64,000 bases of DNA from the IMG/VR virus record IMGVR_UViG_3300010403_000024, positions 1 to 64,000 of that record. One strand, written 5' to 3'. Source of the stretch: a virus. The notes beneath the pieces are model-generated. The model saw only the letters and a program-made list of their open reading frames with translations. It searched no databases and was not told the origin of the DNA. The first letter of the stretch is position 1; every line of letters begins with the position of its first letter. Made by a program: the position numbers and the translations under genes. Shown piece after piece: positions 17,217-55,154 of this stretch.

Positions 17217-17537
17217 GACCTTTAAGAGCCGGCGGTACATCTTGCGCTGTTCGCGGTTGGAGTTCTTCACATGCGACCAGACACCCTTTTTTAAGAACTG
17301 CACATGGCGGCGCAGGTGGAAGAAATCGACCCCGCAACCGCGGGCAAAGGCGTCGATGGTCTCGATCTTCACGCCAGCCCAGGTGCGGCGCACGGAGAGG
17401 CTGCTGACGGTCGCGAGCGACAACCCGGAGCGGGCGGCGATCTGGCGGGCGGAGAGGCCGCGGCGCCCATGCGACTGGCGCGCGACCAGCCGGCAGAGGT
17501 GCGGCGGGAACCGATCCAAGAACTGGAGCAAAGTCAT
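17214..17537 (-). CDS. helix-turn-helix protein (XRE-like), possible regulator or small terminase
   Basis: 107 aa. An HTH is visible at LSARQIAARSGLSLATVSSL (about residues 28-47), followed by WAGVKIETIDAFARGCGVDF, as in Cro/C1-type domains. The C-terminus is basic (KNSNREQRKMYRRLLKV). The start overlaps the terminase stop (ATGA), so the two are co-translated. That linkage makes a DNA-recognising small terminase possible. The fold equally suits the repressor that might bind the palindromes described here. Confidence 0.68.
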   Translation of the reverse strand: MTLLQFLDRFPPHLCRLVARQSHGRRGLSARQIAARSGLSLATVSSLSVRRTWAGVKIETIDAFARGCGVDFFHLRRHVQFLKKGVWSHVKNSNREQRKMYRRLLKV

Positions 17538-19120
17538 ACCGAAATGATCCCGGATTCTTCCACGTCGGGCTGCGGGCGGGCGGTGGGCTTGAACGCCTCT
17601 TCGAGCATCTCGGCCTGCATCTCCTTAAAGATCGGGTAGGAAAGGGCGTCGAAGACGTGGAGGTCCTCGCTTTTGACGATGTAGTGGTTGTTCGATTGGG
17701 AGAGGTTCTCCAGCATCTTGCGGACCTTGACGCATTTGGCGGAGATGAACAGCCGCTCCTCCTGCAGCAGGATCGAGATCATGCGGACGCGGGTGCGGCG
17801 GCTGTGCGCGGGTTTATGGACCCCTTCGAGCGAGATCGTGCCCCCGGAGGCTTTGGAGATTTCGAGGTAGTCGTAGGGGTTGTCGCTGTTCGGGCGGAAG
17901 ACGTTGAGGGCCGAGTCGTCGGCGTAATGGTCCCACTCGAACTTCTTGCCCGCATGCTTCTCGATGGTCAGGATCGATTGCATGACCCATTCGGTGAAGA
18001 CATCGAGTTTGACGCATTCGTCGTGGGACATGCCGGTGCCGATGTGAACGATCTCGTCCAGAACCGTCCAGCAGCTAATCTCCTTGCCCGCGACCAGCCG
18101 CAGCCATTTATCGAGCAGGATGACGGCGTGGTTGACGCCCCCGATGTCCCATCCGGATTTGAGCTTGGTGGTGGTCGGGGCAACCTGGGCCTGATCCTCT
18201 TCGCCGTCGTTTCCACCGACCAGGTGTTTCGAAGGGCTGAACAAGTGGCGGAAATGGAACTTGGTCTCGAAGCCGCCGACGCCCCAGATGCCGTCGTAAT
18301 AGGCTTCTTTGAGGGCCCGGTCGCCGCGGCAGGTGGCGAAGAGCCGCACCTGCTGCTGGCGGGTCATGTGTGGGTTATCGCGCCAATGCATGTGGATGAC
18401 GCGCATCTGCTTGTAGAGCTCGGACATCATGGCGCGCTCGTCGTCGGTCTCCTCCGGGATCGGGGGTTTGTTGCGCTCGACGTAAAAGACCTGATAGATC
18501 CAACTGTTGCGCCCCATCACCTCGTCGGGGTTGGTATCGGCGATCCATTCGATGAAATTTTCGGCGTATTTCTCCATGCCAGGCATGCGCAGGCTGTTGA
18601 TCGTGATCGGGAGCAGCTTGCGCTCTTTCCACATCGAAAGCTCGACGAAGTACATGCCGGAGAAGTTTTTATTTTTGACCTTCTCCTCGATCTCGTTCTC
18701 GTTATTGATCGAGAAGAGCCAGACCCGGGAGCGGCCCCCGTACCAGTTGCGGACATCGCAGTAGGCGGTGCGGGTGTTGGCATCGACCTTGGGGCCGGGG
18801 TTGCCCTCGGCCGTCTTGCTGACGATGGCGAAGCGGCTCTTGCCGTCGCGCCCGACCAGGTTGGCGTCGATCCATTGGGGCAGGATATGCTCGATCAGCA
18901 TCTGCCAGGAGCCGCCGTCTTTGGCGAGCTTGACCGATTTGGCGAAGATGCCGTATTGGGCGGCGGGAGTCATCCAGAGGTGCTTGGCGATGCGGTGGAG
19001 GATGGAATAGGTCTTCCCGCTCCAGCGGCTGCCGTCCACAAGAATGATCTGCTCACGACAGTTAAACACGTCCCATTGCTTAGAGAAAAGTGAGGGTAGC
19101 CATTGGGGATGGTCGGACAT
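17534..19120 (-). CDS. terminase large subunit
   Basis: 528 aa, normal size. Walker A GSRWSGKT at residues 30-37. The Walker B region is MYFVELSMW (156-164), where Val-Glu stands in place of the usual Asp-Glu pair. The RNase H-like nuclease acidic residues are in GWDIGGVNHAV (D325), YADDSALN (D401/D402) and HVFDALSY (D491). It packages DNA through the portal. Unusually it is encoded on the opposite strand from the portal and capsid genes, sandwiched between a zinc protein and an HTH protein. Confidence 0.93.
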   Translation of the reverse strand: MSDHPQWLPSLFSKQWDVFNCREQIILVDGSRWSGKTYSILHRIAKHLWMTPAAQYGIFAKSVKLAKDGGSWQMLIEHILPQWIDANLVGRDGKSRFAIVSKTAEGNPGPKVDANTRTAYCDVRNWYGGRSRVWLFSINNENEIEEKVKNKNFSGMYFVELSMWKERKLLPITINSLRMPGMEKYAENFIEWIADTNPDEVMGRNSWIYQVFYVERNKPPIPEETDDERAMMSELYKQMRVIHMHWRDNPHMTRQQQVRLFATCRGDRALKEAYYDGIWGVGGFETKFHFRHLFSPSKHLVGGNDGEEDQAQVAPTTTKLKSGWDIGGVNHAVILLDKWLRLVAGKEISCWTVLDEIVHIGTGMSHDECVKLDVFTEWVMQSILTIEKHAGKKFEWDHYADDSALNVFRPNSDNPYDYLEISKASGGTISLEGVHKPAHSRRTRVRMISILLQEERLFISAKCVKVRKMLENLSQSNNHYIVKSEDLHVFDALSYPIFKEMQAEMLEEAFKPTARPQPDVEESGIISV

Positions 19121-26853: not shown

Positions 26854-28734
26854 ATGGCAGCACCAGTCACCTCGGTCTCAAATACGGTCCCGATCACCAA
26901 CCGGGCCTTAAACATCTCCGACCATTTTGCCGCGCAATGCAGCGTGGTGGTCGATAGCGATTACGATACGTGCGGGACGATCACCCGCGCCAGCATCGCC
27001 TACCTGACCAAGAACCAGCTGGACGCGATCTTCAGTCCGGGCGGGCTGTTCGCCGACCTCGATGCGTGGTTCAAGCATTCGATTGAGATGCGCGCCTGCG
27101 GCGTGCAGCGCTTCGCCCTCTACGACTGGATCATGGCCAACGCTGACCGCCGAAATTTCCGGGCCGCGCTTTACCCCGGCGTGAAGGCGATGAAGGGGCC
27201 GACGATCCTGCAGCCGTTCATCATGGGGCGGCAGATGTCGATCATCAACCGCGACCATTGGCAGATCACGTCTGGCGGCAACATGACGGCGCCGACCGGG
27301 GCTTCGCTGGGCGGCGGCACCCTGCAGAGCCGGTTTACCGACAGCAGCGGCAACGCCCTGGACGCGACCAAATACGTGCGGGTCGAGAGCCGGTACGGGA
27401 CGCCGGTCAATCAGGCGTTCTTCCGCCCGATGGATACCGTGCATATCTTCAACACCGCGAGCGGGGTGCTGCAGCATGGGGCCTGGCGCGTGATCGATTC
27501 AATCCACGATTCGACCCAGCAGTATTGTTACGTGGCCCTGCAGAGTTTGAACGCGGGCTCGACCGAGCAGTATGACGCTTCACCCGGCCAGGCGCTGGCG
27601 GCCTACATGGTGCCGGGCTTGAACAACGTGCAGGACTGGGAAACGTGGTGCAATAACCGTCCAACCCTCGACGGCCGCAAGATGGTGCCCTTCTGGCGCC
27701 AGACCGATCGCTGGACCCGCTGCGTCGATTCGGAATATCTGATCGTCTATTCGCGCCTGATGGAGGCCAATGCGGCCTTCCGCGAATTCGGCGACCTGCC
27801 GCTGGCCGAGCGCAACAAGCAGGACGAGATGGAGCGCCAGAAGCGGTTTGTGAACGACTTCTTCTACAACAAGCCGTTGGCGAACCAGGATCTGGTGAAC
27901 TGGCAGAGTCTGGAAAAGATTTACTCCGTCGATGGCGCCGGCCTGAGCCTGGGCATCGGCAGCAAGCAGGTCGCTTACCGCGCCAACTTTATTGGGGTGC
28001 GCGAGCAGCTCCGCATCTGCGCGCAGGTCTATGACTTGGTGAATCATCCGCTGGAATTCTACGAGTTCCTCGACCTGAACTATTCGATCATGCGGGCGCG
28101 CAACACCTTTTACGGGCGCCAGATCACGGACATCGACTGGTACACGAGCAACCAGTTTGCGGCGCTGCTCTCCCAGGCGTATTCGACCTACATCAATCAG
28201 GTCTGGCCGGGGCTGAACCCGCAGATCCTGGTGGGCGACCAGTTGACCGGGTTGACCAAGCTGGGCCAGCCGTACCTGCGCTTCCGGGTGCATTATCCCA
28301 GCGGCGTGAACATCAACATCATCTCCGACTTTTACTTCGACGACCGGCTGGACCAGTTCCAGAACCAGATCTTTGCCGGGGAATCAAGCGCGGGCATCAA
28401 CCAGGAATGGGCGGGCAACCTGCTCTGGTGCCTCGACATCGGCAAGCCGGGCGCGGGCAGCATCTACTGGGCGCAGGTGGCATCCAACCGGCGCACGACC
28501 TCGACGGCGAGCCTGAACGAACTGGCCAAGCTGGACTCGACCTTCCGCTGCACCATGAACGTGATCAGCATCGAGCAGACGCTGAACAGCAACGAAGGAA
28601 CGGCGGTGGTCGAATGCCCGCTGGGTAACGCCATGCTGGAGGGGATTAGTCTGGTCACGCCGACGACACGCGGACGGGCGAAGACGATTGGGGGAACCGG
28701 GTCCAGTGGCCAATACTCTGATCTTTACAGCTAA
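26854..28734 (+). CDS. major capsid protein
   Basis: 626 aa, assigned by position (portal, scaffold, this gene, then a strong terminator) and by the look of the sequence. It is soluble, without low complexity, with mixed alpha/beta composition and many aromatic residues (QRFALYDWIMANADRRNFRA, EFLDLNYSIMRARNTFYGRQ). It would form the HK97-fold shell. Larger than the usual 300-450 aa, so an inserted or extra surface domain is likely. The C-terminus (GISLVTPTTRGRAKTIGG) is basic. Its translation start lies against an RNA hairpin, an unusual setting for the most abundant virion protein. Confidence 0.75.
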   Translation: MAAPVTSVSNTVPITNRALNISDHFAAQCSVVVDSDYDTCGTITRASIAYLTKNQLDAIFSPGGLFADLDAWFKHSIEMRACGVQRFALYDWIMANADRRNFRAALYPGVKAMKGPTILQPFIMGRQMSIINRDHWQITSGGNMTAPTGASLGGGTLQSRFTDSSGNALDATKYVRVESRYGTPVNQAFFRPMDTVHIFNTASGVLQHGAWRVIDSIHDSTQQYCYVALQSLNAGSTEQYDASPGQALAAYMVPGLNNVQDWETWCNNRPTLDGRKMVPFWRQTDRWTRCVDSEYLIVYSRLMEANAAFREFGDLPLAERNKQDEMERQKRFVNDFFYNKPLANQDLVNWQSLEKIYSVDGAGLSLGIGSKQVAYRANFIGVREQLRICAQVYDLVNHPLEFYEFLDLNYSIMRARNTFYGRQITDIDWYTSNQFAALLSQAYSTYINQVWPGLNPQILVGDQLTGLTKLGQPYLRFRVHYPSGVNINIISDFYFDDRLDQFQNQIFAGESSAGINQEWAGNLLWCLDIGKPGAGSIYWAQVASNRRTTSTASLNELAKLDSTFRCTMNVISIEQTLNSNEGTAVVECPLGNAMLEGISLVTPTTRGRAKTIGGTGSSGQYSDLYS

Positions 28735-28755
28735 AATATTAGTTGACCACTGCGA

Positions 28756-28786
28756 GGGTGCGGCTATGTTAGCCGCACCCTTTTTT
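28756..28786 (+). terminator. rho-independent terminator after the capsid gene
   Basis: GGGTGCGGCT-ATGTT-AGCCGCACCC: a perfect 10-base stem followed by TTTTTT. The next gene's ATG begins immediately after the T-run. Confidence 0.92.
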
Positions 28787-29512
28787 ATGACCGCAGAAGA
28801 AGTCACTGCCGAGACAATTCGCCGAATCAACTCCCCGAGACGCTCAGATGCCACGCCATTTTTCAGGATGCCGAAGGGTTGGAATTGGAACCACGCACAT
28901 CCAACCCTGTACCTCTGGTTGGCAGTGCTCAGCATCTGCAACCGGGAGAAATACCATCTCGTTCGCAAGTTTGTTTACCGTGCGGCCAACCTGGAGCGCC
29001 GAGCCAAGGTCAAGGTGAAGAATGCCTCCTTGCGGCAATACCGGAAGGAACGCCGGGAAATTCGGCGGCGAGATCCCGCCTACGCCGAGCTTGAACGCCA
29101 AAGGAACAAGGACGACTTCCAGAAGCACAAACCGAGGATCTACGCCTATCGAAAGCGTCGGCGAAAGAGCGACCCGCAATATCAGATCTCCTCCAACCTG
29201 CGGACCTACATCTACCAACATGTGGGAGAGAAGACGCAGCGTGGCGAGAGCCGCTTTCGCAAGCTGGTGGGTTGCTCGGTGGCGGAATTGCAGGCACATC
29301 TTGAGTGGCAATTTTTGCCGGGGATGACGTGGGGCAACTACGGGAGAGGGATGGGCAAATGGAATATGGATCACATTCGACCCTGCGCGAGCTTCGATAT
29401 GACCGATCAACAGCAAGTGCTGGAGTGCTTCAACTGGCGGAACTTGAGGCCGCTCTGGTGGCAGGACAACCTGGCCAAATCAGATAAATTTGTGTTGCAC
29501 TCAGGCTTCTGA
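28787..29512 (+). CDS. HNH endonuclease-like protein
   Basis: 241 aa from MTAEEVTAETIRRINSPRRS. The N-terminal part contains HLVRKFVYRAANLERRAKVK, followed by a long basic helix (RKERREIRRRDPAYAELERQ). The HNH module is at the C-terminus: KWNMDHIRPCASFDM, ending CFNWRNLRPLWWQDN, with the D-H pair and later Asn conserved as in phage and homing HNH enzymes. The start at 28787 is preferred to an earlier in-frame one because that would read through the terminator hairpin. The gene is bracketed by two terminators, the look of an inserted selfish gene. Confidence 0.85.
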   Translation: MTAEEVTAETIRRINSPRRSDATPFFRMPKGWNWNHAHPTLYLWLAVLSICNREKYHLVRKFVYRAANLERRAKVKVKNASLRQYRKERREIRRRDPAYAELERQRNKDDFQKHKPRIYAYRKRRRKSDPQYQISSNLRTYIYQHVGEKTQRGESRFRKLVGCSVAELQAHLEWQFLPGMTWGNYGRGMGKWNMDHIRPCASFDMTDQQQVLECFNWRNLRPLWWQDNLAKSDKFVLHSGF

Positions 29513-29549
29513 CGCGGCACTATGCCGTCGCATTCGCGGGCCATACACC

Positions 29550-29582
29550 GGGCGCTCCTTCTCGACGGGAGCGCCCTTTTTT
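29550..29582 (+). terminator. rho-independent terminator after the HNH gene
   Basis: GGGCGCTCC / GGAGCGCCC, 9-base stem with a 9-base loop, followed by TTTTTT. Confidence 0.9.
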
Positions 29583-30234: not shown

Positions 30235-30473
30235 CCCACATCCTGATCGAGTTGCAGGTGAAGAACGGCGAGGTGATGGTGCTGGTCCAACACCAAAAGG
30301 GCGCCACCGAAAATGAGAGGGAGAAAGAGATCGGGGAATGGGTAGCCAAGGGCTTGCTCGAACTGATCCCGATGATGCTGGGAGCAGAGGTGCAGGAAAC
30401 GGCGGAAGGCCCCATGAGCGTGGTGGGGCCGCACATCCGCAAGCGGGTCGAGGAGTGGAGGAACAAAACGTGA
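30231..30473 (+). CDS. hypothetical protein, 80 aa
   Basis: MTHILIELQVKNGEVMVLVQ suggests a small beta-hairpin start, followed by helical KEIGEWVAKGLLELIPMML and a basic end. Overlaps the stop of the zinc peptide and the GTG start of the glycosyltransferase-like gene. Not recognised. Confidence 0.55.
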   Translation: MTHILIELQVKNGEVMVLVQHQKGATENEREKEIGEWVAKGLLELIPMMLGAEVQETAEGPMSVVGPHIRKRVEEWRNKT

Positions 30474-31330
30474 AAGTGGAGATCCTGGTTGTAACGCACG
30501 CCAAGGACCTGCCTTACCTGCGCTGGTGCCTGCAATCGATCAAGAAGTTCGGGAGCGGGTTTACGGGCGTGACGCTGGTCTATCCTGAGCAGGAGCGCGA
30601 ACAGTTCGATCGAGCCCAAGTGGGGAAGCACTGGTGCGTGGGAGCGTTACTCCTGCGCGAGTTCGACCAGTTCCCCGGCAAGGGAATGCTGGATCACATG
30701 GCGCAGAAGATGATGGCCGACATCCACTGCCCGGAGGCCGACTACATCCTGCACGTCGATTCGGACTGCGTGTTCCGGGAGGCGTTCAAGCCGGAGGATT
30801 ATTTCGAGCCGCATGGGGAATTTTTCTGCAATGAGGACTATCTGAAGGCCAACTTGAAGCCGGTGCTGCTGATCGAGCCTTACGAAGTGCTCAAGACCAA
30901 GCATCCAGGGCGCTATCACTGGAAAAGCGTGGTGGAGGCCATGCTGGGGCTGCCTTGCGAGTACGAGACCATGTGCCGGCATCCGATGGTGAACCCACGC
31001 GGGGTCTACGCGCCCTACCGGGAGTTCCTGGAGCGGCGCTGGAAGCTGCCCTTCCGGCATTACTACCTGACGGGCAACAACGCCTTTCCTCAGTCAATTT
31101 GCGAGTTCAACAGCCTGGGGGCCTTCTGGATCACATGGGAGCATCAACCTGGCGACGGATTCAGCAAGTGTCCCTGGCATCTGATCGACCTTTCGAAGAA
31201 GCAACGCCCCAAGGACAAGCTGGTTCAGTTTTGGAGCCATAGCCCGCCGGACAAGCCGCAGGAGATCTGGATCGACGGCAAGGAAGTGGTGGTGGTGCCG
31301 GAGGTGCTGATCAAGGAGATTCTCGCCTGA
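30470..31330 (+). CDS. GT-A-like glycosyltransferase (1 of 4)
   Basis: 286 aa, GTG start preceded by GAGGAGTGGAGG. VKVEILVVTHAKDLPYLRWC is the usual N-terminal beta-alpha start of GT-A enzymes. ADYILHVDSDCVFREAF carries a DxD (VDSD) for metal/nucleotide-sugar binding near residue 100. The rest (YYLTGNNAFPQSICEFNSLG) fits the acceptor half. It would transfer a sugar to a host envelope glycan, the virion or phage DNA; the sequence does not say which. Head of the glycan-enzyme island. Confidence 0.68.
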   Translation: MKVEILVVTHAKDLPYLRWCLQSIKKFGSGFTGVTLVYPEQEREQFDRAQVGKHWCVGALLLREFDQFPGKGMLDHMAQKMMADIHCPEADYILHVDSDCVFREAFKPEDYFEPHGEFFCNEDYLKANLKPVLLIEPYEVLKTKHPGRYHWKSVVEAMLGLPCEYETMCRHPMVNPRGVYAPYREFLERRWKLPFRHYYLTGNNAFPQSICEFNSLGAFWITWEHQPGDGFSKCPWHLIDLSKKQRPKDKLVQFWSHSPPDKPQEIWIDGKEVVVVPEVLIKEILA

Positions 31331-31348
31331 CCGAACTATCATCGTGAT

Positions 31349-32074
31349 ATGAAAATCTGGATCTTCAGCTTTTGCCGGAATGAGGAGCGGATGCTGCCGT
31401 GGTACCTGCGCCACTACGAGCGGTTTGCCGAGCGCATTTTGGTGTGGGACGATCATAGTTGGGACGGGAGCTTTGAGATTTTGAAACACCACCCGAAGGT
31501 GACGGTCTATCCCTGGCCCTACGACAGCGGGTTGAACGACGAGATGATGAACCGCTTCGCGATGGCGACCGCGCCGGGGTTGACTCAGCACAACAAATGC
31601 GACTGGTGGATGTGGGTGGACATTGACGAGTTCATTTATCACCCACAGATGGAAGACGCGCTGGACATGGGCGGTTACTACGACGCGATAATTCCGATTG
31701 GCTATAACATGATGAGCGCGAATGGGTTGCCGGTCGATGACGGGAAGAGCCAACTGACGGATCTCCTCAGAACTGGAGTGGCGGCACCAGTCTATAGCAA
31801 GCCGGTGATCGTGCGACAGGGACGGCAGGTTTACTGGGATCGTGGGCGGCACCATTTCGAGAACTGTCCGCTGACGGTGAACCCGTATACCGGGATCAAA
31901 CTCCTGCACTACCGCTACCTTGGCGCCGACTACACCCGGGTACGCAACGCCCGCAACTACGCGGCGGTCGGACCGGACAAGCAGGCGGCTTGGAGTTGCG
32001 CGCCGGATTACAAGGGCGAGGGCTCGCCGGAGTGGGTGCTGGCGGCGCAGAAGGGGGCGTTTGAGGTGATATGA
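31349..32074 (+). CDS. family 2-type glycosyltransferase (2 of 4)
   Basis: 241 aa. MKIWIFSFCRNEERMLPWYL, then ILVWDDHSWDGSFEILKHHP and WWMWVDIDEFIYHPQ, where VDIDEF is the DxD region. This is the arrangement of the Glyco_tranf_2_4/GT92-type enzymes: RNE...LP.WL.HH..., DDxSxDGS, DxDEF. A histidine/Tyr-rich C-terminus (LLHYRYLGADYTRVRNARNY) completes the domain. Its stop overlaps the next start. Confidence 0.82.
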   Translation: MKIWIFSFCRNEERMLPWYLRHYERFAERILVWDDHSWDGSFEILKHHPKVTVYPWPYDSGLNDEMMNRFAMATAPGLTQHNKCDWWMWVDIDEFIYHPQMEDALDMGGYYDAIIPIGYNMMSANGLPVDDGKSQLTDLLRTGVAAPVYSKPVIVRQGRQVYWDRGRHHFENCPLTVNPYTGIKLLHYRYLGADYTRVRNARNYAAVGPDKQAAWSCAPDYKGEGSPEWVLAAQKGAFEVI

Positions 32075-32298
32075 GCATCTTGGAGCTTAGACCCGCTGAA
32101 GAATGGGCCGAAGAAAAGGCCCGCGAACTGGCCATGGACTCTGCGCACATTCCAGCCATCAAATCCCAACTCGTGCCGCAATACCGCCAGATCCAAGCCA
32201 ATGTGCTCAGGTGGGCGGCTTCTGAATCCCACTCTCGCGAATCTCGTGACTTCTTAACCGATAAAGCCAACCAGCTCGACCCTGAAAAAGCGGCATGA
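32071..32298 (+). CDS. small protein of a duplicated pair, 75 aa
   Basis: MSILELRPAEEWAEEKAREL, then RQIQANVLRWAASES and DKANQLDPEKAA at the end. The C-terminal half matches the next gene (RQIQANALRF...DKMANQLHPLPEKSA), so the two arose by tandem duplication. Helical. Unknown function; coupled by ATGA on both sides. Confidence 0.6.
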   Translation: MSILELRPAEEWAEEKARELAMDSAHIPAIKSQLVPQYRQIQANVLRWAASESHSRESRDFLTDKANQLDPEKAA

Positions 32299-32513
32299 AC
32301 CTCGAACCCGCTGAAAACTTTGCTACTTTCCTCGCGCCTGTTTGCGCAATGGACTTGGAGCAAATTGAAGAGTTTGTTCGGCAGATCCAAGCCAATGCGC
32401 TTAGATTTTCTGCTACTTTCGTATTGGCAAGCCCTGATGATTGCTGCTGCACATCTGACGCTTTGGACAAGATGGCCAACCAACTCCACCCACTGCCTGA
32501 AAAATCAGCATGA
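32295..32513 (+). CDS. small protein of a duplicated pair, 72 aa
   Basis: MNLEPAENFATFLAPVCAMD, RQIQANALRFSATF, a DDCCCTSD cysteine cluster, and DKMANQLHPLPEKSA. Paralogue of the preceding gene, from which it differs mainly by the cysteine cluster. Sits just before a methyltransferase and two radical SAM genes. Confidence 0.6.
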   Translation: MNLEPAENFATFLAPVCAMDLEQIEEFVRQIQANALRFSATFVLASPDDCCCTSDALDKMANQLHPLPEKSA

Positions 32514-33076
32514 ACTTCGGCGCCATCACCCCCAACGACGCAGCGCTGCTGGAAGCGCTGGTTATGCGCTTCAAGGGGCGCATCCTGCGCTTCCTGGAGA
32601 TCGGCACCCATGAGGGGAACACCGCGCGCGGGGTGAAGGAACTTTGCGACCGTGACGGAATCTCAATCGACCTGCGCTACTACGGAATCGACGCCCGCGA
32701 CCTTCCGCCGCCCTTTGACGGGGCCTGGCAAATCTCTGGCCGCTCGGAAGAAGCCTGGGAGTTCATACCGGGCAACATGGACATCGTCTTTGTCGATGGC
32801 TGCCACTGCATCAACCATGTGATCCTGGACGTGGTGCATTACTCGGCAAAGGTAGTTGTGGGCGGCTACATGGTCTTTCATGATACCGACCCGCAGGTGC
32901 AGGGGGTGCAGACCAACCCTTGGGTGCATAAGGGGGACGGGCCGATCTACCGGACGGCGGTGCTGGCGGCATTGGAGAAGCTCGGCTGGCCGAATGAGCG
33001 GTGGCAACTGGACTTAACGGCGAGCGACCCACAGTCTGACATTGGGGGCATGATGGCTTTCAGGAGGGGCGCGTGA
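32510..33076 (+). CDS. class I SAM-dependent methyltransferase
   Basis: 188 aa. ILRFLEIGTHEGNTARGVKE is motif I (ExGxxxGxT), YYGIDARDLP the acidic loop, and DIVFVDGCHCINHVILDVVH followed by GGYMVFHDT the Methyltransf_24-type core. Such enzymes methylate sugars or small molecules, in keeping with adjacent glycosyltransferases and radical SAM enzymes. Overlaps both neighbours by four bases. Confidence 0.82.
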   Translation: MNFGAITPNDAALLEALVMRFKGRILRFLEIGTHEGNTARGVKELCDRDGISIDLRYYGIDARDLPPPFDGAWQISGRSEEAWEFIPGNMDIVFVDGCHCINHVILDVVHYSAKVVVGGYMVFHDTDPQVQGVQTNPWVHKGDGPIYRTAVLAALEKLGWPNERWQLDLTASDPQSDIGGMMAFRRGA

Positions 33077-33816
33077 TCGAACTTCCGCATCTGGACTGCA
33101 ACGTGTGTGAAAATTGCGACAAGCAATGCACTGGATGCAGCCATGCCTCGCCGATATTGCCGCCGTGGTCGATGCCGCTGGAGATGATCGAACGCGACCT
33201 GCTGGCCCTGAAACCATTCGTGACGGTGGGCCACCTGCAAATCCTCGGCGGAGAACCGCTGCTGCATAAAGAGATTGTGGGAATCCTGCGGCTGGTGAAA
33301 CGAATCCGAATCGACGTTTGCACGACCGTAATTACCAACGGCAACCTGCTGCCGCGCATGACCGAAGATTTCTGGCGCGAACTGGAGTATTTGCAGATCA
33401 GTATTTACCCGACGCTCGACCCGAAGATCCCTTGGCTGGCGGAGTGCAAGAGCCGGGAGTATGGGTTTGGGTTGGGCACGACCGTCTTCGACTCCTTTTA
33501 CCGCGAGATCAAAGCGGTGCCGGACGACGGGGTAGAGTCGTTCAGGAATTGTGGGTGGCGTCACGACTGCTACACTGTGCATCGCGGCCACTTCTACCTG
33601 TGCTCGCAAAGCTGCTTCTTCCCCAAAGCCATCCAGGGACTGCCGCCAGAGATCGACGGCTTGCCCCTCGAAGGCTTGACCGAGGAGAAGCTGGGCAATT
33701 TCATGAACCGGACGGAGCCATTCAACGCCTGCCGGGTCTGCTGTGCGCCGCTGAAACAGCGCGTGCCCTGGCGGGAATCGAAGCGGCGGGAGTGGTCGAA
33801 GGATTCGGCGGACTGA
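33073..33816 (+). CDS. radical SAM enzyme 1
   Basis: 247 aa, GTG start. The CxxxCxxC cluster is C15, C19, C22 in CENCDKQCTGCSHASP. LQILGGEPLLHKEIVGIL carries the GGEP SAM-binding motif. Additional cysteines occur in CGWRHDCYTVHRGHFYLCSQ and the terminal ACRVCCAPLKQRVPW, possibly a SPASM/twitch-type auxiliary cluster. The CxxCC...VPW ending resembles radical SAM proteins of polysaccharide loci. The substrate is unknown. Confidence 0.88.
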   Translation: MIELPHLDCNVCENCDKQCTGCSHASPILPPWSMPLEMIERDLLALKPFVTVGHLQILGGEPLLHKEIVGILRLVKRIRIDVCTTVITNGNLLPRMTEDFWRELEYLQISIYPTLDPKIPWLAECKSREYGFGLGTTVFDSFYREIKAVPDDGVESFRNCGWRHDCYTVHRGHFYLCSQSCFFPKAIQGLPPEIDGLPLEGLTEEKLGNFMNRTEPFNACRVCCAPLKQRVPWRESKRREWSKDSAD

Positions 33817-33821
33817 ATTTT

Positions 33822-34622
33822 ATGGGACGTAAAAACGATTGGATCGAGATGTCGCTGGTATCGGCTTGCGCGCTCAGGTGTGATTATTGCGCGCAGTCGC
33901 TGTTAGCCAAGCGCTACAAGGAATCGGGCGGCGACAAACGGATGACGCTGGAGACGTTCACGGCCATCCTGGATCACATCCCCAAAGACATCGGGGTAGA
34001 TTTCTCAGGGTATGCCGACTGCAACCTGCACCCAAACTTCATCGACTTCTTTACCCTGGCGGTCTCGCGTGGATTTACGGTCAGCGTCTATACGACCTTT
34101 GAAGGGATGAGTTGGGAGCACTACGGGCGCTTCAAGCAGATCCCATTCGAGATCCTGAGCATTCATCTGCCGGATGTGAACGAACTGATTCACCTGCGCT
34201 GGACCGAGGATTACAAGCGCATCCTGCACGCGCTCAACGACGATCCGCCCAAGTGCGTGCGGCAGGACCGGATGTGCGTGAAGGGGCCGCTGCACCCGGA
34301 CGTGGCGTTTCTTGAGCCGGTGCGGATCATGCACATCCAGCCGCGGTCAGGGAATGTTCCGGAGAGCCTGAGCCGGCATGAGAGCTTCCACGCGGACCCG
34401 CTCAAATGCGGCCGGGGAAACAATCTACGCCAGAACGTGGCGTTGCCTGACGGGAGCGTGTACCTCTGCTGCTGCGATTACGGGATGGTGCATAACCTGG
34501 GCAACCTGACCCGGCAGACCTTCGACGAACTGGACGCAGAGCGAGCCAAGTTGATCGACCGGCAGAAGAAGCCGGATGAGAAACTGTTGTGTTCTACCTG
34601 CGAGTTTGCGGTGCCACTCTGA
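33822..34622 (+). CDS. radical SAM/SPASM-like enzyme 2
   Basis: 266 aa. C16, C20, C23 in SACALRCDYCAQS are the radical SAM ligands. The C-terminus has CGRGNNLRQNVALPDGSVYL, CCCDYGMVHNLGNL and LLCSTCEFAVPL, the cysteine-rich SPASM-like region with a GNL signature. Immediately downstream of radical SAM enzyme 1; the two share only the general fold. Could modify a sugar, or a peptide as in RiPP maturation. Confidence 0.88.
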   Translation: MGRKNDWIEMSLVSACALRCDYCAQSLLAKRYKESGGDKRMTLETFTAILDHIPKDIGVDFSGYADCNLHPNFIDFFTLAVSRGFTVSVYTTFEGMSWEHYGRFKQIPFEILSIHLPDVNELIHLRWTEDYKRILHALNDDPPKCVRQDRMCVKGPLHPDVAFLEPVRIMHIQPRSGNVPESLSRHESFHADPLKCGRGNNLRQNVALPDGSVYLCCCDYGMVHNLGNLTRQTFDELDAERAKLIDRQKKPDEKLLCSTCEFAVPL

Positions 34623-34623
34623 C

Positions 34624-34806
34624 ATGAGATTCATCAAACCTGAGCCGATAAAAATCAACTGGCCAAGGCTACGCGCCTTTCGGAAAACCACCCAAGCGAC
34701 CCTAAACATGATCCGCCTGACCCAGGCTAAGCCGACCAAGAAACGGCTTCGTAGAATCCGCTACTGGCATCGGCAAATGCTGCACTGTGCGCGGCGGGAA
34801 GTTTAA
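34624..34806 (+). CDS. small basic protein, 60 aa
   Basis: MRFIKPEPIKINWPRLRAFR, then KPTKKRLRRIRYWHRQMLHC. Highly basic and probably helical; may bind nucleic acid. It follows radical SAM enzyme 2 by one base. Function unknown. Confidence 0.5.
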   Translation: MRFIKPEPIKINWPRLRAFRKTTQATLNMIRLTQAKPTKKRLRRIRYWHRQMLHCARREV

Positions 34807-34810
34807 AACT

Positions 34811-35038
34811 ATGAGCGAGACTACCGACAAGAAACCGGAGAGCAACGAACAGTTGCTCAACCGCGCCTATCAACAAACCGAGCGGGCCTACGCGATCGTG
34901 AACAAGGCGACTTCGCGCCGGCAGTTCAAGGGGCCGGAGATTTGGGAGTTTCTGGGCTACCTGCGCGGAGCGACGGCGGCGGCGCAGGAGATGGAGAACC
35001 GGAGCCGGGGGAACGCGCCGGCTCAAGTTGGAGATTAA
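34811..35038 (+). CDS. hypothetical protein, 75 aa
   Basis: MSETTDKKPESNEQLLNRAY, then helical QTERAYAIVNKATSRRQFKG and FLGYLRGATAAAQEMENRS. Not recognised. Begins a few bases after the previous stop. Confidence 0.55.
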   Translation: MSETTDKKPESNEQLLNRAYQQTERAYAIVNKATSRRQFKGPEIWEFLGYLRGATAAAQEMENRSRGNAPAQVGD

Positions 35039-35062
35039 CAGAAGCAAACGAAGGGAACGAAG
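35039..35062 (+). repeat. GAAG-AACGAAG dispersed repeat (copy 1)
   Basis: ACAGAAGCAAACGAAGGGAA followed by CGAAG, fills the gap and provides a GA-rich ribosome binding region for the next ATG. Related copies at 37756-37782 and 49199-49224. Confidence 0.65.
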
Positions 35063-35266
35063 ATGGAACAATACCAACTACGGGTGGTGGCCGAGGAAAT
35101 GGAACTGAGCGAGCGGCTGGAGCGGCTGCGGGCCTTCATCGAGGATGCGAAATTTCGCAACTTACCATTCGCGGAGCAGGAACGGATGGGCAAGCAGCTG
35201 CGCGCGATGGACACCTACCAGGAGGCACTGCGCGAGCGGATTGCGGCTTGGGGGGAGACAAAGTGA
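35063..35266 (+). CDS. small helical protein, 67 aa (paralogue of 55154-55396)
   Basis: MEQYQLRVVAEEMELSERLE, then RLRAFIEDAKFRNLPFAEQE and QLRAMDTYQEALRERIAAW. The pattern (QRV.EE..EL...I.RL..F...EQ.RL..QL..M..Y...L.ERI) is common in phage small proteins, and a second copy is encoded at 55154. Function unknown. Confidence 0.65.
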   Translation: MEQYQLRVVAEEMELSERLERLRAFIEDAKFRNLPFAEQERMGKQLRAMDTYQEALRERIAAWGETK

Positions 35267-35436
35267 GGCGCGTTGCCGGCATCTTTCTGATCGCGCTGCC
35301 ATTCGTCGTGATTGGCATCACCCTTTATCTACAAGGGGAACTCTGGGGCTTCGCTAAAATGATCCTGATCCTGGCGGCCTCCCTAGCACCGATCTTCCTT
35401 GGGATGAGCCTTCTGTGCGGAAAGGGCAAGGATTGA
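35263..35436 (+). CDS. 57-aa two-span membrane protein
   Basis: GTG start overlapping the previous stop. VRRVAGIFLIALPFVVIGIT, then a second hydrophobic stretch (MILILAASLAPIFLGMSLLC) and GKGKD. Two spans with a basic N-terminus; may be a membrane modifier or holin-like. Not recognised. Confidence 0.55.
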   Translation: MRRVAGIFLIALPFVVIGITLYLQGELWGFAKMILILAASLAPIFLGMSLLCGKGKD

Positions 35437-36332
35437 ACTTAGGCAGCCTCTTGTACCTGCCCGGCTTGTCGGTCACGCCTGAGCGGACGGCGGCGTGCCT
35501 GGCCAACCTGGCAAGATGGAAGCACAAATACCCGATCTACATCTACAGCGAGCGGGAGTGGCATCCGAGCTTGTGGCGGATGATCGGCGGGATCGAGTTC
35601 AGCCAGTGCGAGAACCCGGAGGTGGTGCGGAGCGAGACAGTGCATCATGTGCCCAAGCTGGCCTACCTGATGGGAGTGCAGATCGCGGCTAATGCTGGAC
35701 TGGAGTTGTTCCTGACGTTGGAGACGGATTCGAGGGTCTGGGGCGATAACTGGGATGAAGCGATCTTCGACGAGTTTTTGGCGCAGCAGGAGTCGGCCCA
35801 GACCGAGATGGTGCTGGGCGGGACCATGTTTGTGTGGCATCCATTCAACGACGGGTTGGATTATGCGCTGGAGTTCGGGACGTTTGTGGAAAAGTTTATC
35901 GCCCGGCGCGGGTCAGGCGTGGAAAACGGGGCTATCAAGGTGCCAAACATGTTCATTTATGGAGGCAGAGGGTCTTGTTCGACGCATCATGTGTGCGCCT
36001 ACCCCAACGGAGCGGGGAGCGTGGCCCGGACCAGTTTCGTGCAGCGGGTGTTTGGTCCGCGCGCGATCAAGCTGGCAGCGCAGGAAGGGAGTGCGTGGGA
36101 CGCCCACTTGGGCTATGGATTGTTTGAGAGCTACGGGCCGCAGGGCTACCGTCGGCTGGCGCCGCTCAATACGGTGTTTAGCGTATATGGTGATCTGTTA
36201 ACGAGTGAAGGAATGCGGATCGGGTTGCTGACTTCAGGGCAGTGTCGGTTAGCACATCAGATCAAGAGCGACTGGAGTGGTGCCGGCTTGGAATTAAACC
36301 GCAGAGACGCAGGGGACGCAGAGAAGACATGA
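35433..36332 (+). CDS. GT-A-like glycosyltransferase (3 of 4)
   Basis: 299 aa from a TTG start that overlaps the previous stop; a GTG at 35415 is the alternative. LGSLLYLPGLSVTPERTAAC is the N-terminal start and LFLTLETDSRVWGDNWDEAI carries the acidic ETD (DxD-like) motif. A C-terminal domain with WDAHLGYGLFESYGPQGYRR follows. The last residues (NRRDAGDAEKT) are encoded by the CGCAGAGACGCAGGGGACGC repeat, so the natural C-terminus may have been replaced. Confidence 0.65.
   Translation: MNLGSLLYLPGLSVTPERTAACLANLARWKHKYPIYIYSEREWHPSLWRMIGGIEFSQCENPEVVRSETVHHVPKLAYLMGVQIAANAGLELFLTLETDSRVWGDNWDEAIFDEFLAQQESAQTEMVLGGTMFVWHPFNDGLDYALEFGTFVEKFIARRGSGVENGAIKVPNMFIYGGRGSCSTHHVCAYPNGAGSVARTSFVQRVFGPRAIKLAAQEGSAWDAHLGYGLFESYGPQGYRRLAPLNTVFSVYGDLLTSEGMRIGLLTSGQCRLAHQIKSDWSGAGLELNRRDAGDAEKT
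36298..36328 (+). repeat. ACCGCAGAGACGCAGGGGAC dispersed repeat
   Basis: Tandem CGCAGAG/CGCAGGG units forming the last codons of the glycosyltransferase gene and the ribosome binding region of the next gene. I know very similar sequence as a repeat in several environmental bacterial phyla. Confidence 0.65.
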
Positions 36333-51109: not shown

Positions 51110-51628
51110 ATGAGAAGACACTGGTCTTATCTGCAATATGTCCTTCGGCACAAATGGTTTGTATTCCTCGCCGGCCTTAAAACTGGCGCGCCACTGTGGC
51201 GGTTGATCATCCACGACTGGAGTAAGTTCCTGCCCTGCGAATGGGGGCCATACGTGCGGAGCTTCTATAACCGGGATGGCAGCAAGCGCGATTGGAAGAC
51301 GCGCGACCCTTGGGACAAGGTGGAGTTTGACTGGGCGTGGAACCACCACCAGAAATCGAACGATCACCATTGGCAGTACTGGTTACTGACCAACGACTCG
51401 GACGATCCAAAGCACCGCCCACTGATGATGCCGGAGGAATGCGTGCGCGAGATGGTGGCCGACTGGATGGGGGCGGGGCGGGCCATTACCGGCAAGTGGG
51501 ATGCGCTCAACTGGTACGGACAGAATCAAGGGAAGATACTGCTGCATGAACTGACGCGCAGCCAAGTGCGCGAGATCCTCGAACGCGCCATGGAGAAAAT
51601 GGTTCTCGACAAGCGGGGCAAAAACTAA
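51110..51628 (+). CDS. DUF5662-family-like protein, 172 aa
   Basis: WRLIIHDWSKFLPCEWGPYV, then DWAWNHHQKSNDHHWQYWLL and PLMMPEECVREMVADWMGAG. The HDWSKF, NHHQ..NDHHWQYW and MPEE..REMVADW elements follow the DUF5662 pattern I know from phages. Conserved His/Asp positions suggest a metal site. Its last base is the first base of the next ATG. Confidence 0.75.
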   Translation: MRRHWSYLQYVLRHKWFVFLAGLKTGAPLWRLIIHDWSKFLPCEWGPYVRSFYNRDGSKRDWKTRDPWDKVEFDWAWNHHQKSNDHHWQYWLLTNDSDDPKHRPLMMPEECVREMVADWMGAGRAITGKWDALNWYGQNQGKILLHELTRSQVREILERAMEKMVLDKRGKN

Positions 51629-53694
51629 TGGCCGCGCGAGTCCCATACAAGCCGATCACCATCCGCCCGATCGATGGCTTGCTCGATACTCGTCTGACCC
51701 CGGACGAGATCCCGATTGGCGGGTACCGCTACGTCGAAAGCTGGGAATGCCTGGCACGGGGCAAGCTCTGCCGGATGAGCGGCTGGCGGCGATTGCTGGA
51801 CGAGGAGTTCAATAACAACGCGGATCTGCACGATCAGTTGCTGACGATCACCGAGCGGGAAGTGCGGCAGCCGATCATCTTTCTCTTTACGCATCCGATG
51901 CCGCTGGGGACGAACAAGTTTTATGCCGCGAGCGCCAATGTGCTGTATGCCCTCAACAACGGGACGGGCAACTGGAAAGTGATCGGCGACGAGTTCAGTC
52001 CCGCCCAGAGCGCCTCCTGCCCAGAGGTGAGATGGAGCGCGGCGGGCTTTGGCGACGTGGTGGTATTCAGCAACGGGATCGACCCGGTAGTTTATCAGGT
52101 GGTCGATCAGCCGGCGCTGGGCGACACCGACCAGAGCGTGCAGACGATCAGCGACCTGGAACTGTTGAACATCACGCGGGTCGGGTTTGTAAAGCAGTTC
52201 GCCGGCCTCACCATTTACTTCAACGTCGTGCAGGATGCGGTGCGGCACAGTTACCGGGCCATCTGGAGCGATTATCAAAATCCGCTGAGCGTGAAGCCCA
52301 AAGCCAGCGCCAGTGTCGCGGGCTACAAGGACCTGGACTTTGGCGAAGTGATATTGGCGGCGGAAGAACTGGGCAACTCGCTGGTCGTCTATACCAACAA
52401 AGCGATCTGGCAGGCGGATCTGGGGGGCGACGCCGGGTTGATCTGGAGCAAGCGCTATTCACCCAAGGATGTCGGCGACCGCTGCTTGGTCTATCCGCGC
52501 ACATTGGTCTCGACCGGATCGGAGCATTACTTCTTTGCCCGCGACGGCATTTACCTCTTCTCGCAGTATGTGGCCAAGCCGCAGCGCATCGAGTGGATTC
52601 ACAACGCGAGCGCCATTGTCTTCGAGGACCTGGACAGCAGCCGGTGCGTGGTGCATCACGGGGCCCATGAGGTGGACAAGAAACAAATCTGGTGGAGCTG
52701 GGCCAAGACGGGCGAGGCGTGTCCGACCCAGAGCTTTGTGATCAACACCGAGTATTCCTTTGCCTCGCTGGTGCCGAAAGGGTTTAGCGCCTTCGGGTTG
52801 TTTGGATTTATCCGGCAAAGGATTCTGCGCGATTTCTTGATCGAGAAGTGCATCTGCGACGCCGCCGGGTTGGAGGAGAACGGGCTGGGCTTCGTGCATG
52901 AAGGCGGCTTCTGCGCGGCCCCCGCCGACTGCACCGGCTGCGACGCGGACACTGAGAGCGACTGCGAGGCCCCGACCTCGATCTACACCAACGAGACGGT
53001 GGACCTCGACGGTGTGGAGGTCGAGGACCTGAACTTTGGTGGCGGCAACACCCCGGATGCACAGTCGCTCTGCACGGCGTTGGCGGGGTTGACCGTGCAG
53101 GACCTCTGCCAGGTGGAAGCGGTCGCGGCCGAGTGCAAGGACGCGGATTTGTTTATCGGGGCCAGCACCGAAGATTTTTGTTTGAAGGAGATGGACAGCG
53201 AGGTGCGCTACCGGGAACGGTGCAGCGACATGGCGGGCTGCGGGACCTACATCAAGGACGGGTATCTGAGCATCCTGCGGAGCGGTCCGCTCGACTTGGG
53301 CTTGCCGGAGCAGGAGAAGCGCATCAGCCGCTTCGGGGTGGAGATACATCCGGAGGAGCAGAGCGTGCCCAGCCAACTGGAACTGAAGGTGGGAAGCGCG
53401 GTGCAGGCGATTGACCCGAACAAGTTCGACGAGAACGGGCGCTGCGTGATCATGTACCGGGAGGAAGTGCCGCGCAGCCTGGAATGTTTATCAACCAAGA
53501 CGGCGGTCGAGCACGCCGAGGCTGGGACGCGCCCGGACGAGGACGTGGCCTGGACGCTGGATATGATCGGGCGCTATTTCTATTTTGAACTGACGGTCAG
53601 CAACCCGAACGTGAGTCCACCGAATACGGGCGGGGCGGTCTGTTTGTCGCGGATCAGTTTCCGGGCCGGGGCGGCGGCGATGCTGAAGATGTAG
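51628..53694 (+). CDS. tail nozzle-like beta-propeller protein
   Basis: 688 aa. KPITIRPIDGLLDTRLTPDE, ECLARGKLCRMSGWRRLLDE, then repeated beta-blade-like segments (VRWSAAGFGDVVVFSNGIDP; KQFAGLTIYFNVVQDAVRHS; YFFARDGIYLFSQYV). This is the layout of podovirus nozzle/tubular proteins that close the tail. The last third (about 430-650) is Cys-rich (CTGCDADTESDCEAPTS) and beta-rich, unusual for a nozzle and perhaps an adhesin added on. Coupled to the gene before it. Confidence 0.72.
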   Translation: MAARVPYKPITIRPIDGLLDTRLTPDEIPIGGYRYVESWECLARGKLCRMSGWRRLLDEEFNNNADLHDQLLTITEREVRQPIIFLFTHPMPLGTNKFYAASANVLYALNNGTGNWKVIGDEFSPAQSASCPEVRWSAAGFGDVVVFSNGIDPVVYQVVDQPALGDTDQSVQTISDLELLNITRVGFVKQFAGLTIYFNVVQDAVRHSYRAIWSDYQNPLSVKPKASASVAGYKDLDFGEVILAAEELGNSLVVYTNKAIWQADLGGDAGLIWSKRYSPKDVGDRCLVYPRTLVSTGSEHYFFARDGIYLFSQYVAKPQRIEWIHNASAIVFEDLDSSRCVVHHGAHEVDKKQIWWSWAKTGEACPTQSFVINTEYSFASLVPKGFSAFGLFGFIRQRILRDFLIEKCICDAAGLEENGLGFVHEGGFCAAPADCTGCDADTESDCEAPTSIYTNETVDLDGVEVEDLNFGGGNTPDAQSLCTALAGLTVQDLCQVEAVAAECKDADLFIGASTEDFCLKEMDSEVRYRERCSDMAGCGTYIKDGYLSILRSGPLDLGLPEQEKRISRFGVEIHPEEQSVPSQLELKVGSAVQAIDPNKFDENGRCVIMYREEVPRSLECLSTKTAVEHAEAGTRPDEDVAWTLDMIGRYFYFELTVSNPNVSPPNTGGAVCLSRISFRAGAAAMLKM

Positions 53695-53736: not shown

Positions 53737-54009
53737 ATGAATGCAAAGAGCACACCCCAAATTGTAAGACGAGTCGGACATTTCAGACCGCCGATCCCGC
53801 AACCGATACCTGAGTTAAGGCCAAGCCCGCCCAGCCTGGTGCCGCAGAACATGGCCCAAACCATCCTGGTGCTGGAGAAGACGATCTACGAGGCCAAGCG
53901 CAAGTACGTGACCGGATCAGGCGACCCGCTGGTGGATCTTGCCAAGCTGATCGAGACGGCGACCGCAGAATGCAACCGCTGTCCGGCAGCTAGCCAGGCA
54001 GTTAAATGA
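53737..54009 (+). CDS. hypothetical protein, 90 aa
   Basis: MNAKSTPQIVRRVGHFRPPI, a Pro-rich segment (PIPELRPSPPSLVPQN), then a helical C-terminal (TILVLEKTIYEAKRKYVTGS, CNRCPAASQAVK). A possible linker protein. First gene of a segment headed by the operator at 53710; its stop overlaps the next start. Confidence 0.58.
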   Translation: MNAKSTPQIVRRVGHFRPPIPQPIPELRPSPPSLVPQNMAQTILVLEKTIYEAKRKYVTGSGDPLVDLAKLIETATAECNRCPAASQAVK

Positions 54010-55154
54010 GCGAGCACTACGAAGAGCGGCATCGGCAGGAGCAACAAGAGCAGCAGGAGCAGGAAATGCAGGTGCGGCCCATCCCGCCGCACCATCACAA
54101 GCCGCATCCACAGCACCAGCAACATCTGCGGCGCCCGCTGGAGATCGACAAGCACCAGTCGCCCCACACGCTTTACCGGAGGTTCGCGCGGCCAGATTGC
54201 CTCAAGGACCCGCTCTACGTGGTTACCAGCGTGTTTAACCCGATCCGTTACCGCTCGCGCTGGAAGCTCTACGAAGATTTCTGCAAGATGTGCGCGGAGA
54301 CCGGCGCCATCCTCTACACAGTGGAAGTCGCTTTCGGGGACCGGGCCTTTTGCTGCACGGACGAGAACAATCCGTTCCACCTGCAACTGCGCACCTGGCA
54401 CGAGATCTGGTTCAAGGAAGCGGCGCTGAACCTGGCGGTGCAATGTTTGCCACACGATTGGAAATACGTAGCCTGGGTCGATGCCGACACACACTTCGCG
54501 CGCTACGACTGGGCGGACGAAACCCGGCATCTGTTGCAACACTACCCGATCATCCAGATGTGGAGCCAGATGCACGACCTGGACTCGAACTTCCAACTGG
54601 TGGGGAGCACGCGCAGCTTTGGCGATGTTTGGATGTCGGGCGAGAAACCGCCGCCGGGTTGGAACCGCGAGGACTGCAAGTATTACTATCCGCACCGCGG
54701 CTACCCTGGGGCCCCGGGCCTGGCCTGGGCGATGCGGCGCGAGGCATGGGAGCAACTGGGCGGCTTGATCGACTACTGCATTCTGGGCGCGGGCGACTGG
54801 TACATGGCCCACGCCTTGACCGGCCAGATCGAACGCGTGCTGGCGCCGGGGCAGCATCCGCGATTGAAAGAGAAGTTGCGGCAATACCAGCACCACGCGG
54901 AGCGCAGCCTGTGGCAGGAGCGCCCGATCTGCGGCAACCTTGGCGTGATGAAAGGGTTAGCGCTGCATTACTGGCACGGGCCGAAGCTGAACCGGCGCTA
55001 CCGATCGCGGGAGCAGATTCTGTACGGGAACAACTACAACCCCGACATCGACCTGAAGCGCGACTGGCAGGGGCTGCTCCAACTGACCTCGCGGTCGGCG
55101 GAGTTGCGCCGGCAGGTGCAGCGATACTTTGCGGAGCGATTGGAGGATGCCTGA
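54006..55154 (+). CDS. GT-A-like glycosyltransferase (4 of 4)
   Basis: 382 aa. A Glu/Gln/His-rich leader (residues 1-55, EEQQEQEMQVRPIPPHHHKP) is followed by DPLYVVTSVFNPIRYRSRWK, the N-terminal strand-helix of GT-A enzymes. WKYVAWVDADTHFARYDWA carries the DxD near residues 157-159. HRGYPGAPGLAWAMRREAWE and ILGAGDWYMAHALTGQI (DW.M.HA.G) match acceptor-side motifs of glycosyltransferases. Distant from the other three in the window. Overlaps the next gene (TGATG). Confidence 0.72.
   Translation: MSEHYEERHRQEQQEQQEQEMQVRPIPPHHHKPHPQHQQHLRRPLEIDKHQSPHTLYRRFARPDCLKDPLYVVTSVFNPIRYRSRWKLYEDFCKMCAETGAILYTVEVAFGDRAFCCTDENNPFHLQLRTWHEIWFKEAALNLAVQCLPHDWKYVAWVDADTHFARYDWADETRHLLQHYPIIQMWSQMHDLDSNFQLVGSTRSFGDVWMSGEKPPPGWNREDCKYYYPHRGYPGAPGLAWAMRREAWEQLGGLIDYCILGAGDWYMAHALTGQIERVLAPGQHPRLKEKLRQYQHHAERSLWQERPICGNLGVMKGLALHYWHGPKLNRRYRSREQILYGNNYNPDIDLKRDWQGLLQLTSRSAELRRQVQRYFAERLEDA

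Follow-up and report, generated by a model that had tools for sequence, protein, structure and literature searches.

In cluster O mycobacteriophages, three tandem glycosyltransferases and an O-methyltransferase modify the capsid and tail tube (Freeman et al. 2023, as described in PMC11600133). Pelagimyophage glycosyltransferases are thought to alter the host O-chain, and cassettes encoding radical S-adenosylmethionine (SAM) enzymes come and go in the same genomic region (PMC7029224). Here, we describe a soil-phage locus that shares features with both systems and with HygY and SpeY, radical SAM enzymes from the pathways to aminoglycoside and aminocyclitol antibiotics. The locus lies in a stretch of 64,000 nucleotides (hereafter the window), which forms part of the 77,439-base IMG/VR record IMGVR_UViG_3300010403_000024 (G000). 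Positions 30470-36332 of the + strand were examined. The gene block is real, and its core comprises five genes, encoding a putative and a Pfam-supported glycosyltransferase (GT1 and GT2), a Methyltransf_24 protein (MT24), and two radical SAM enzymes (rSAM1 and rSAM2). Two small genes lie within the block, and an orphan gene (GT3) follows it. As in cluster O, tandem glycosyltransferases and an O-methyltransferase occur together in a phage genome. No radical SAM enzymes are described there, however, and the host, phage family, and probably the sugar differ; for the window, the modification is a prediction. The hypervariable region of pelagimyophages, which is tied to structural genes, likewise combines glycosyltransferases with radical SAM proteins, but these are other phages, the authors favor the host O-chain as the target, and the likeness is one of gene content (PMC7029224). 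With HygY and SpeY, rSAM1 shares the radical SAM and auxiliary cysteines and, as in HygY, a cysteine at position 183; it differs in being viral, only ~30% identical, and encoded alongside glycosyltransferases and another radical SAM enzyme. In the window, the glycosyltransferase and methyltransferase genes are linked to structural genes as in virion glycosylation systems, the capsid gene being assigned by position only. We regard the cassette as a variant of phage glycosylation islands, a known kind of system, with a predicted HygY-type epimerase.

IMG/VR was scanned with rSAM1 to find related cassettes. Four contigs (L003, L004, L005, and L006) each carry GT1, GT2, rSAM1, MT24, and rSAM2 contiguously, with proteins 31-68% identical to those of the window, and the sole difference in gene order is that rSAM1 lies ahead of MT24. 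These contigs represent two variants of one lineage whose backbone is unlike that of the window. A full-length comparison of the 57-kb contig G001, which carries the cassette, and the 77-kb record showed that they have almost nothing else in common, the remaining matches being a few short or partial ones and one small gene. Recurrence of the five genes in another phage lineage exceeds chance, and the synteny check proposed in an earlier first-pass annotation of this DNA thus found the block contiguous on a second backbone. A fifth contig (L197, 54.6 kb) has the order GT1-rSAM1-GT2, lacks rSAM2, and encodes another methyltransferase. Relatives of GT2 are present in all five other cassettes (43-48% identity) and those of MT24 in four (37-40%), while rSAM2 is 68% identical to its counterparts in L003 and L004. 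From its gene set, L197 therefore points to a modular island in which GT1, GT2, and rSAM1 are the most persistent members and MT24 and rSAM2 are gained or lost. At first pass, relatives carrying an incomplete set of these genes in unrelated places had been named as evidence against the proposal; L197 carries a subset, but its island is related to that of G001, and it reads as modularity, not refutation. Both L197 and G001 encode a 478-aa gene product (38% identity), a 208/240-aa gene product, and a large gene after the island, which we take, without database proof, to be a putative portal gene.

Comparison of the sister variants L003 and L004 gave ratios of nonsynonymous to synonymous substitution (dN/dS) of ~0.05 for GT2, 0.06 for rSAM1, and 0.12 for MT24, and the rSAM2 DNA was identical. 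Similarity of ~93-95% at the DNA level stops within the second half of GT1 (L003:8075-8545) and returns after the gene. Read from the alignments, this pattern is one of purifying selection with an apparent local swap of a glycosyltransferase segment. These data also address the alternative that no single pathway exists and that independent genes have merely gathered in a variable region. In keeping with that idea, rSAM2 relatives stand alone in other viruses, L197 does without rSAM2, and GT3 and the small genes were found only in the window, barring one relative. We nevertheless consider it improbable, given that the five genes are contiguous on two backbones under purifying selection and that GT1, GT2, and rSAM1 occur together in three arrangements.

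The radical SAM motif of rSAM1, CxxxCxxC, is formed by C15, C19, and C22. Its best solved relative (7wzv/7wzx/7x0b; E=1.4e-31 over residues 7-242, ~30% identity) is titled "The structure of a Twitch Radical SAM Dehydrogenase SpeY." This match rests on sequence, and AlphaFold models of rSAM1 and rSAM2 built from three-row alignments were poor (predicted local distance difference test scores of 45 and 42, respectively). The auxiliary (twitch) cysteines C160, C177, C220, and C223 correspond to residues 175, 194, 240, and 243 of a HygY-like S. hygroscopicus protein (L022), presumably HygY itself or one of its close relatives. Indeed, every cysteine of that protein (24, 28, 31, 175, 183, 194, 240, and 243) has an equivalent in rSAM1. 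Residue 183, which aligns with C166 of rSAM1, is presumably the Cys183 that acts as the hydrogen donor of HygY. The SpeY-like protein of L038 has a serine at this position, whereas equivalents of C166 are also present in L003, L004, L197, and Synechococcus phage S-SCSM2R. Because rSAM1 has a cysteine where the HygY-like protein does and the SpeY-like protein does not, we predict that it is a sugar epimerase. In a phylogenetic tree, the cassette rSAM1 proteins form one clade (support, 0.998) adjoined by that of L197 (0.974), within a group of twelve viral sequences (0.86). Bacterial genomes gave no match when scanned narrowly with a cassette-specific rSAM1 alignment, but a broader alignment retrieved hundreds of candidates, with Streptomyces and Streptoalloteichus among the best matches. 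Glycosyltransferase models were the most frequent match among genes adjoining these bacterial relatives (Glycos_transf_2 in 14/113, plus other glycosyltransferase models); 10 radical SAM proteins were also found. Separately, an rSAM1-type enzyme of phage S-SCSM2R (L012, 9134-15887) sits amid five glycosyltransferases and an aminotransferase, in an island whose annotations include an aminohydroxybenzoate synthase and an inosamine amidinotransferase, which recalls aminocyclitol chemistry.

The second enzyme, rSAM2, matched the SPASM model PF13186 at 28.7 bits (cutoff, 21.5). Its PF04055 score was 30 bits, above the cutoff, in one run and 29.1 against a cutoff of 29.5 (0.4 bits under) in another. 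Two adjacent radical SAM genes with extra cysteines had been proposed from the sequence, and the Pfam radical SAM and SPASM matches, together with the aligned auxiliary cysteines, bear this out. Six aligned rSAM2 members keep the radical SAM cysteines as well as C199, C219, C220, C260, and C263. One scan of IMG/VR returned 251 candidate relatives, and annotated phages contributed four records. Genes beside the viral relatives match DUF6445 (29/100), with TPR, HtrL_YibB, FkbM, and glycosyltransferase family 25 also represented. In Synechococcus phage DSL-LC02, an rSAM2-like domain with ~30% identity and the same SPASM cysteines makes up the final portion of a TPR-FkbM-radical SAM protein (WJZ48257.1), encoded between tail-fiber genes and adjoining a gene annotated as a mannosyltransferase. 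This protein differs from rSAM2 in its fusion to an FkbM methyltransferase, and no relative of GT1, GT2, or rSAM1 was noted beside it. Elsewhere, the relative in methanogen virus vir524 follows terminase and head-morphogenesis genes, and that of a 735-kb phage has no evident adjoining glycosyltransferase. Searching at E<1e-12 yielded no match among 289 genomes from the phylum of a Verrucomicrobia metagenome-assembled genome (MAG) and three partial matches among 244 genomes from the phylum of a cyanobacterial MAG; no strong full-length cellular relative or source was thus found in the two sampled phyla. rSAM2 belongs to a SPASM/twitch family that is rich in viral members, some of them fused to an FkbM methyltransferase, and its chemistry is not readable from sequence.

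Three glycosyltransferases had been counted in the island at first pass, and a fourth at position 54006. GT2 is upheld by Pfam. GT1 matched no Pfam or PHROG model but has relatives in L003, L004, L005, L006, and L197, and an alignment of four of these sequences showed D97-x-D99 to be invariant, together with a W-S-H at the C-terminal end. Since it is conserved in five other contigs and retains these motifs, GT1 is likely a GT-A enzyme. The assignment is weak for GT3, which has one DxD-like motif, no match in Pfam, PHROGs, NCBIfam, or the PDB, and no relative in the viral contig scan. The protein encoded at 54006-55154 had no Pfam match; besides its WVDADTHF motif, it has a single phage relative, an unannotated protein of Xanthomonas phage XaC1 (43%). 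Support for a glycosyltransferase identity is thus weak for both GT3 and the 54006 protein. No relation emerged when profiles were compared between GT1 and GT3, GT1 and GT2, or GT2 and the 54006 protein. The Methyltransf_24 assignment of MT24, likewise made earlier from the sequence, agrees with its Pfam match (Table 1).

Table 1. Features of the locus and its surroundings (window coordinates)
Feature	Position	Strand	Basis and remarks
GT1, putative GT-A-type glycosyltransferase	30470..31330	+	286 aa, GTG start; homologues in other cassettes, DxD, W-S-H
GT2, glycosyltransferase, PF13704 Glyco_tranf_2_4	31349..32074	+	Pfam 1.2e-16
Small protein 1 (75 aa), paralogous to small protein 2	32071..32298	+	None in other cassettes
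Small protein 2 (72 aa)	32295..32513	+	Relative in G001, far from the G001 cassette
MT24, Methyltransf_24 PF13578, likely sugar O-methyltransferase	32510..33076	+	Pfam 3.3e-9; weak RMNT_CmcI match, 0.026
rSAM1, HygY/SpeY-type twitch radical SAM enzyme, predicted sugar epimerase	33073..33816	+	PF04055 3.6e-10; SpeY match, cysteines, tree
rSAM2, radical SAM/SPASM-twitch enzyme	33822..34622	+	PF13186 SPASM 1.6e-6; frame open from 33813
GT3, orphan, glycosyltransferase label weak, outside the conserved cassette	35415..36332	+	One DxD-like motif
Putative glycosyltransferase, distant from the cassette	54006..55154	+	WVDADTHF motif; XaC1 relative
Terminator-like hairpin upstream of the cassette	29550..29576	+	10-pair stem and T-run

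Within the block, four-base overlaps join GT2/32071, 32071/32295, 32295/32510, and 32510/33073, so the earlier observation that most junctions overlap in this way stands at these four. It fails at rSAM1/rSAM2: the codon at 33813 is CTG, not a usual start, and the ATG at 33822 matches the MGRR of rSAM2 relatives. The start of rSAM2 is most likely at 33822, in which case the two genes would not overlap. Further small genes lie between rSAM2 and GT3 on the same strand. The pair at 32071 and 32295 had been noticed as a duplication, and the two proteins are true paralogues: their alignment scores 72, whereas shuffled sequences average 23 (standard deviation, 4.3; maximum, 47).

The small genes had also been suggested as peptide substrates of the radical SAM enzymes, which would make the locus a ribosomally synthesized and post-translationally modified peptide (RiPP) system with the small genes encoding the precursors. 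Although the small genes directly adjoin the enzymes and rSAM2 has a SPASM-type domain, comparison with the other cassettes makes this reading highly improbable. Both genes are missing from five of five other cassettes, where the enzymes abut directly, and a homologue of the 32295 gene (48% over 46 aa) occurs at G001 35059-35361, ~28 kb from the G001 cassette. No precursor-recognition domain was found in either radical SAM protein with Pfam or NCBIfam, bearing in mind that sequence models can miss such domains. Neither enzyme shows the seven-cysteine, two-cluster SPASM set, the auxiliary cysteine positions numbering only four, and the closest solved relative of rSAM1 works in aminocyclitol antibiotic biosynthesis. 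The small genes thus are not conserved partners of the radical SAM enzymes, and their candidacy as substrates was rejected on comparative grounds. Independently of this question, a small-protein family with an RQIQA-A-LR motif is common to two otherwise nearly unrelated phages and duplicated in the window.

The terminase gene (17534-19120) maps to one side of the cassette and a virion structural gene of phrog_3287 (51628-53694) to the other. In G001 and L197, the putative portal gene comes after the island, and rSAM2 relatives elsewhere occur in head-gene or tail-fiber regions. On each of two phage backbones, the cassette falls within the morphogenesis region or next to it, and this placement favors a virion protein as the most likely acceptor. 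The terminase, capsid, and portal candidates had no relatives in annotated phages. The main rival is modification of the host envelope, in which the same enzymes would modify a glycan on the host surface, such as O-antigen or capsule, in the course of infection or lysogeny, altering receptors and keeping out other phages. A phage-integrase protein is present, bacterial rSAM1 relatives adjoin glycosyltransferases, and the pelagimyophage cassettes of glycosyltransferases and radical SAM proteins in the tail-fiber hypervariable region have been read in this way (PMC7029224). Neither a GtrA flippase nor a bactoprenol glucosyltransferase (gtrABC) was recognized in the genome, within the gene calls used, and the absence of a recognized flippase weighs against gtr-type seroconversion. 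As far as mapped, the cassette also neighbors or falls within the morphogenesis region and is not next to the integrase. On balance, we judge the host surface a rather unlikely target.

Phage DNA, another target considered at first pass, would require a hypermodification pathway yielding glycosylated bases. Phage glycosyltransferases can modify DNA, and this genome also encodes DNA methyltransferases. Yet no thymidylate-synthase-like protein, hydroxymethylase, base kinase, base-oxidizing dioxygenase, or other base-hypermodification enzyme was recognized by Pfam among the 81 genome proteins or among the PHROG matches listed (25 of 62 families), and the glycosyltransferases did not match DNA glucosyltransferase families. 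DNA glycosylation is therefore very improbable and was rejected, as its supporting genes were not recognized.

Terminator-like hairpins occur at 28754 and 29550. Terminator-like sites in the region approximate the shuffle mean in total, and only the strongest hairpins carry weight. The hairpin upstream of the cassette (Table 1) suggests that the cassette transcript is separate from that of the preceding gene. An endonuclease VII/HNH-like gene (28688-29576; phrog_1035, 1.7e-4) separates the putative capsid gene from the cassette; the two hairpins, both strong, flank it, with that at 28754 before its likely start and that at 29550 after it, and it is possibly a homing-type insertion. Other Pfam matches in the record include DUF5131 (8e-44), DUF5662, phage integrase, ERF, YqaJ, and C5 and N4/N6 DNA methylases; DUF5131 is, we assume, a radical-SAM-like family. 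Positions 62008-67578 of the record (L021:9-5579) hold a 1,856-aa open frame with no Pfam match and no PHROG among the matches listed. In a related phage, an 880-aa protein (L003:2037-4679) matches the intein-splicing domain PF14890 at 3.5e-8, just below the curated cutoff.

At about even confidence, we favor a mobile phage cassette that builds and tailors a glycan, most likely on virion proteins, with rSAM1 as a HygY-type epimerase. A sugar pathway is supported because the cassette is kept as a unit, rSAM1 belongs to a sugar-acting twitch family, and its bacterial relatives adjoin glycosyltransferases. The first-pass proposal of a pathway building or remodeling an unusual sugar thus survives, shorn of its peptide and DNA targets. 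The gene identities, joint conservation, cysteine pattern, and purifying selection are observed; the substrate, reaction order, and acceptor we infer as follows. Soluble GT1 and GT2, perhaps with GT3 and the 54006 protein, would transfer sugars from host nucleotide sugars to the acceptor and extend the glycan. rSAM1 would act at a late stage, after its sugar has been built into the glycan: the 5'-deoxyadenosyl radical would take a carbon-bound hydrogen, and C166 would return a hydrogen to the opposite face, inverting the center (epimerization) as in HygY. The Methyltransf_24 enzyme may then O-methylate the sugar, and rSAM2 may add a further radical change. It is possible, and we propose it tentatively, that a virion-bound glycan is edited after transfer by a HygY-type epimerase together with the virus-rich rSAM2, with part of GT1 swapped to change specificity.

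Several points weigh against the virion-glycan explanation. GT1 and GT3 are without a family match. A cysteine at position 183 is present in 73/80 bacterial and 33/42 viral relatives that have the other checked cysteines; it is the common family state and need not mean epimerase activity in every member. The hydrogen-donor role given to this residue follows the title of Besandre 2021 and is putative here. In addition, the capsid and portal genes were assigned by position only, the integrase-family protein also fits a host-surface role, and the terminator-like hairpins may separate the cassette, on its own transcript, from the 26854 gene.

A search of the open-access literature found no paper combining "radical SAM," phage, glycosyltransferase, and FkbM. 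If the favored explanation is correct, phages would generate rare sugars in situ by the chemistry of aminoglycoside tailoring, dispensing with their own nucleotide-sugar pathway. The cassette would represent a compact glycan-editing enzyme set in which C166 offers a single-residue prediction separating epimerase from dehydrogenase. It would also give a functional handle on the large, virus-rich rSAM2 family, which is otherwise annotated by domain alone.

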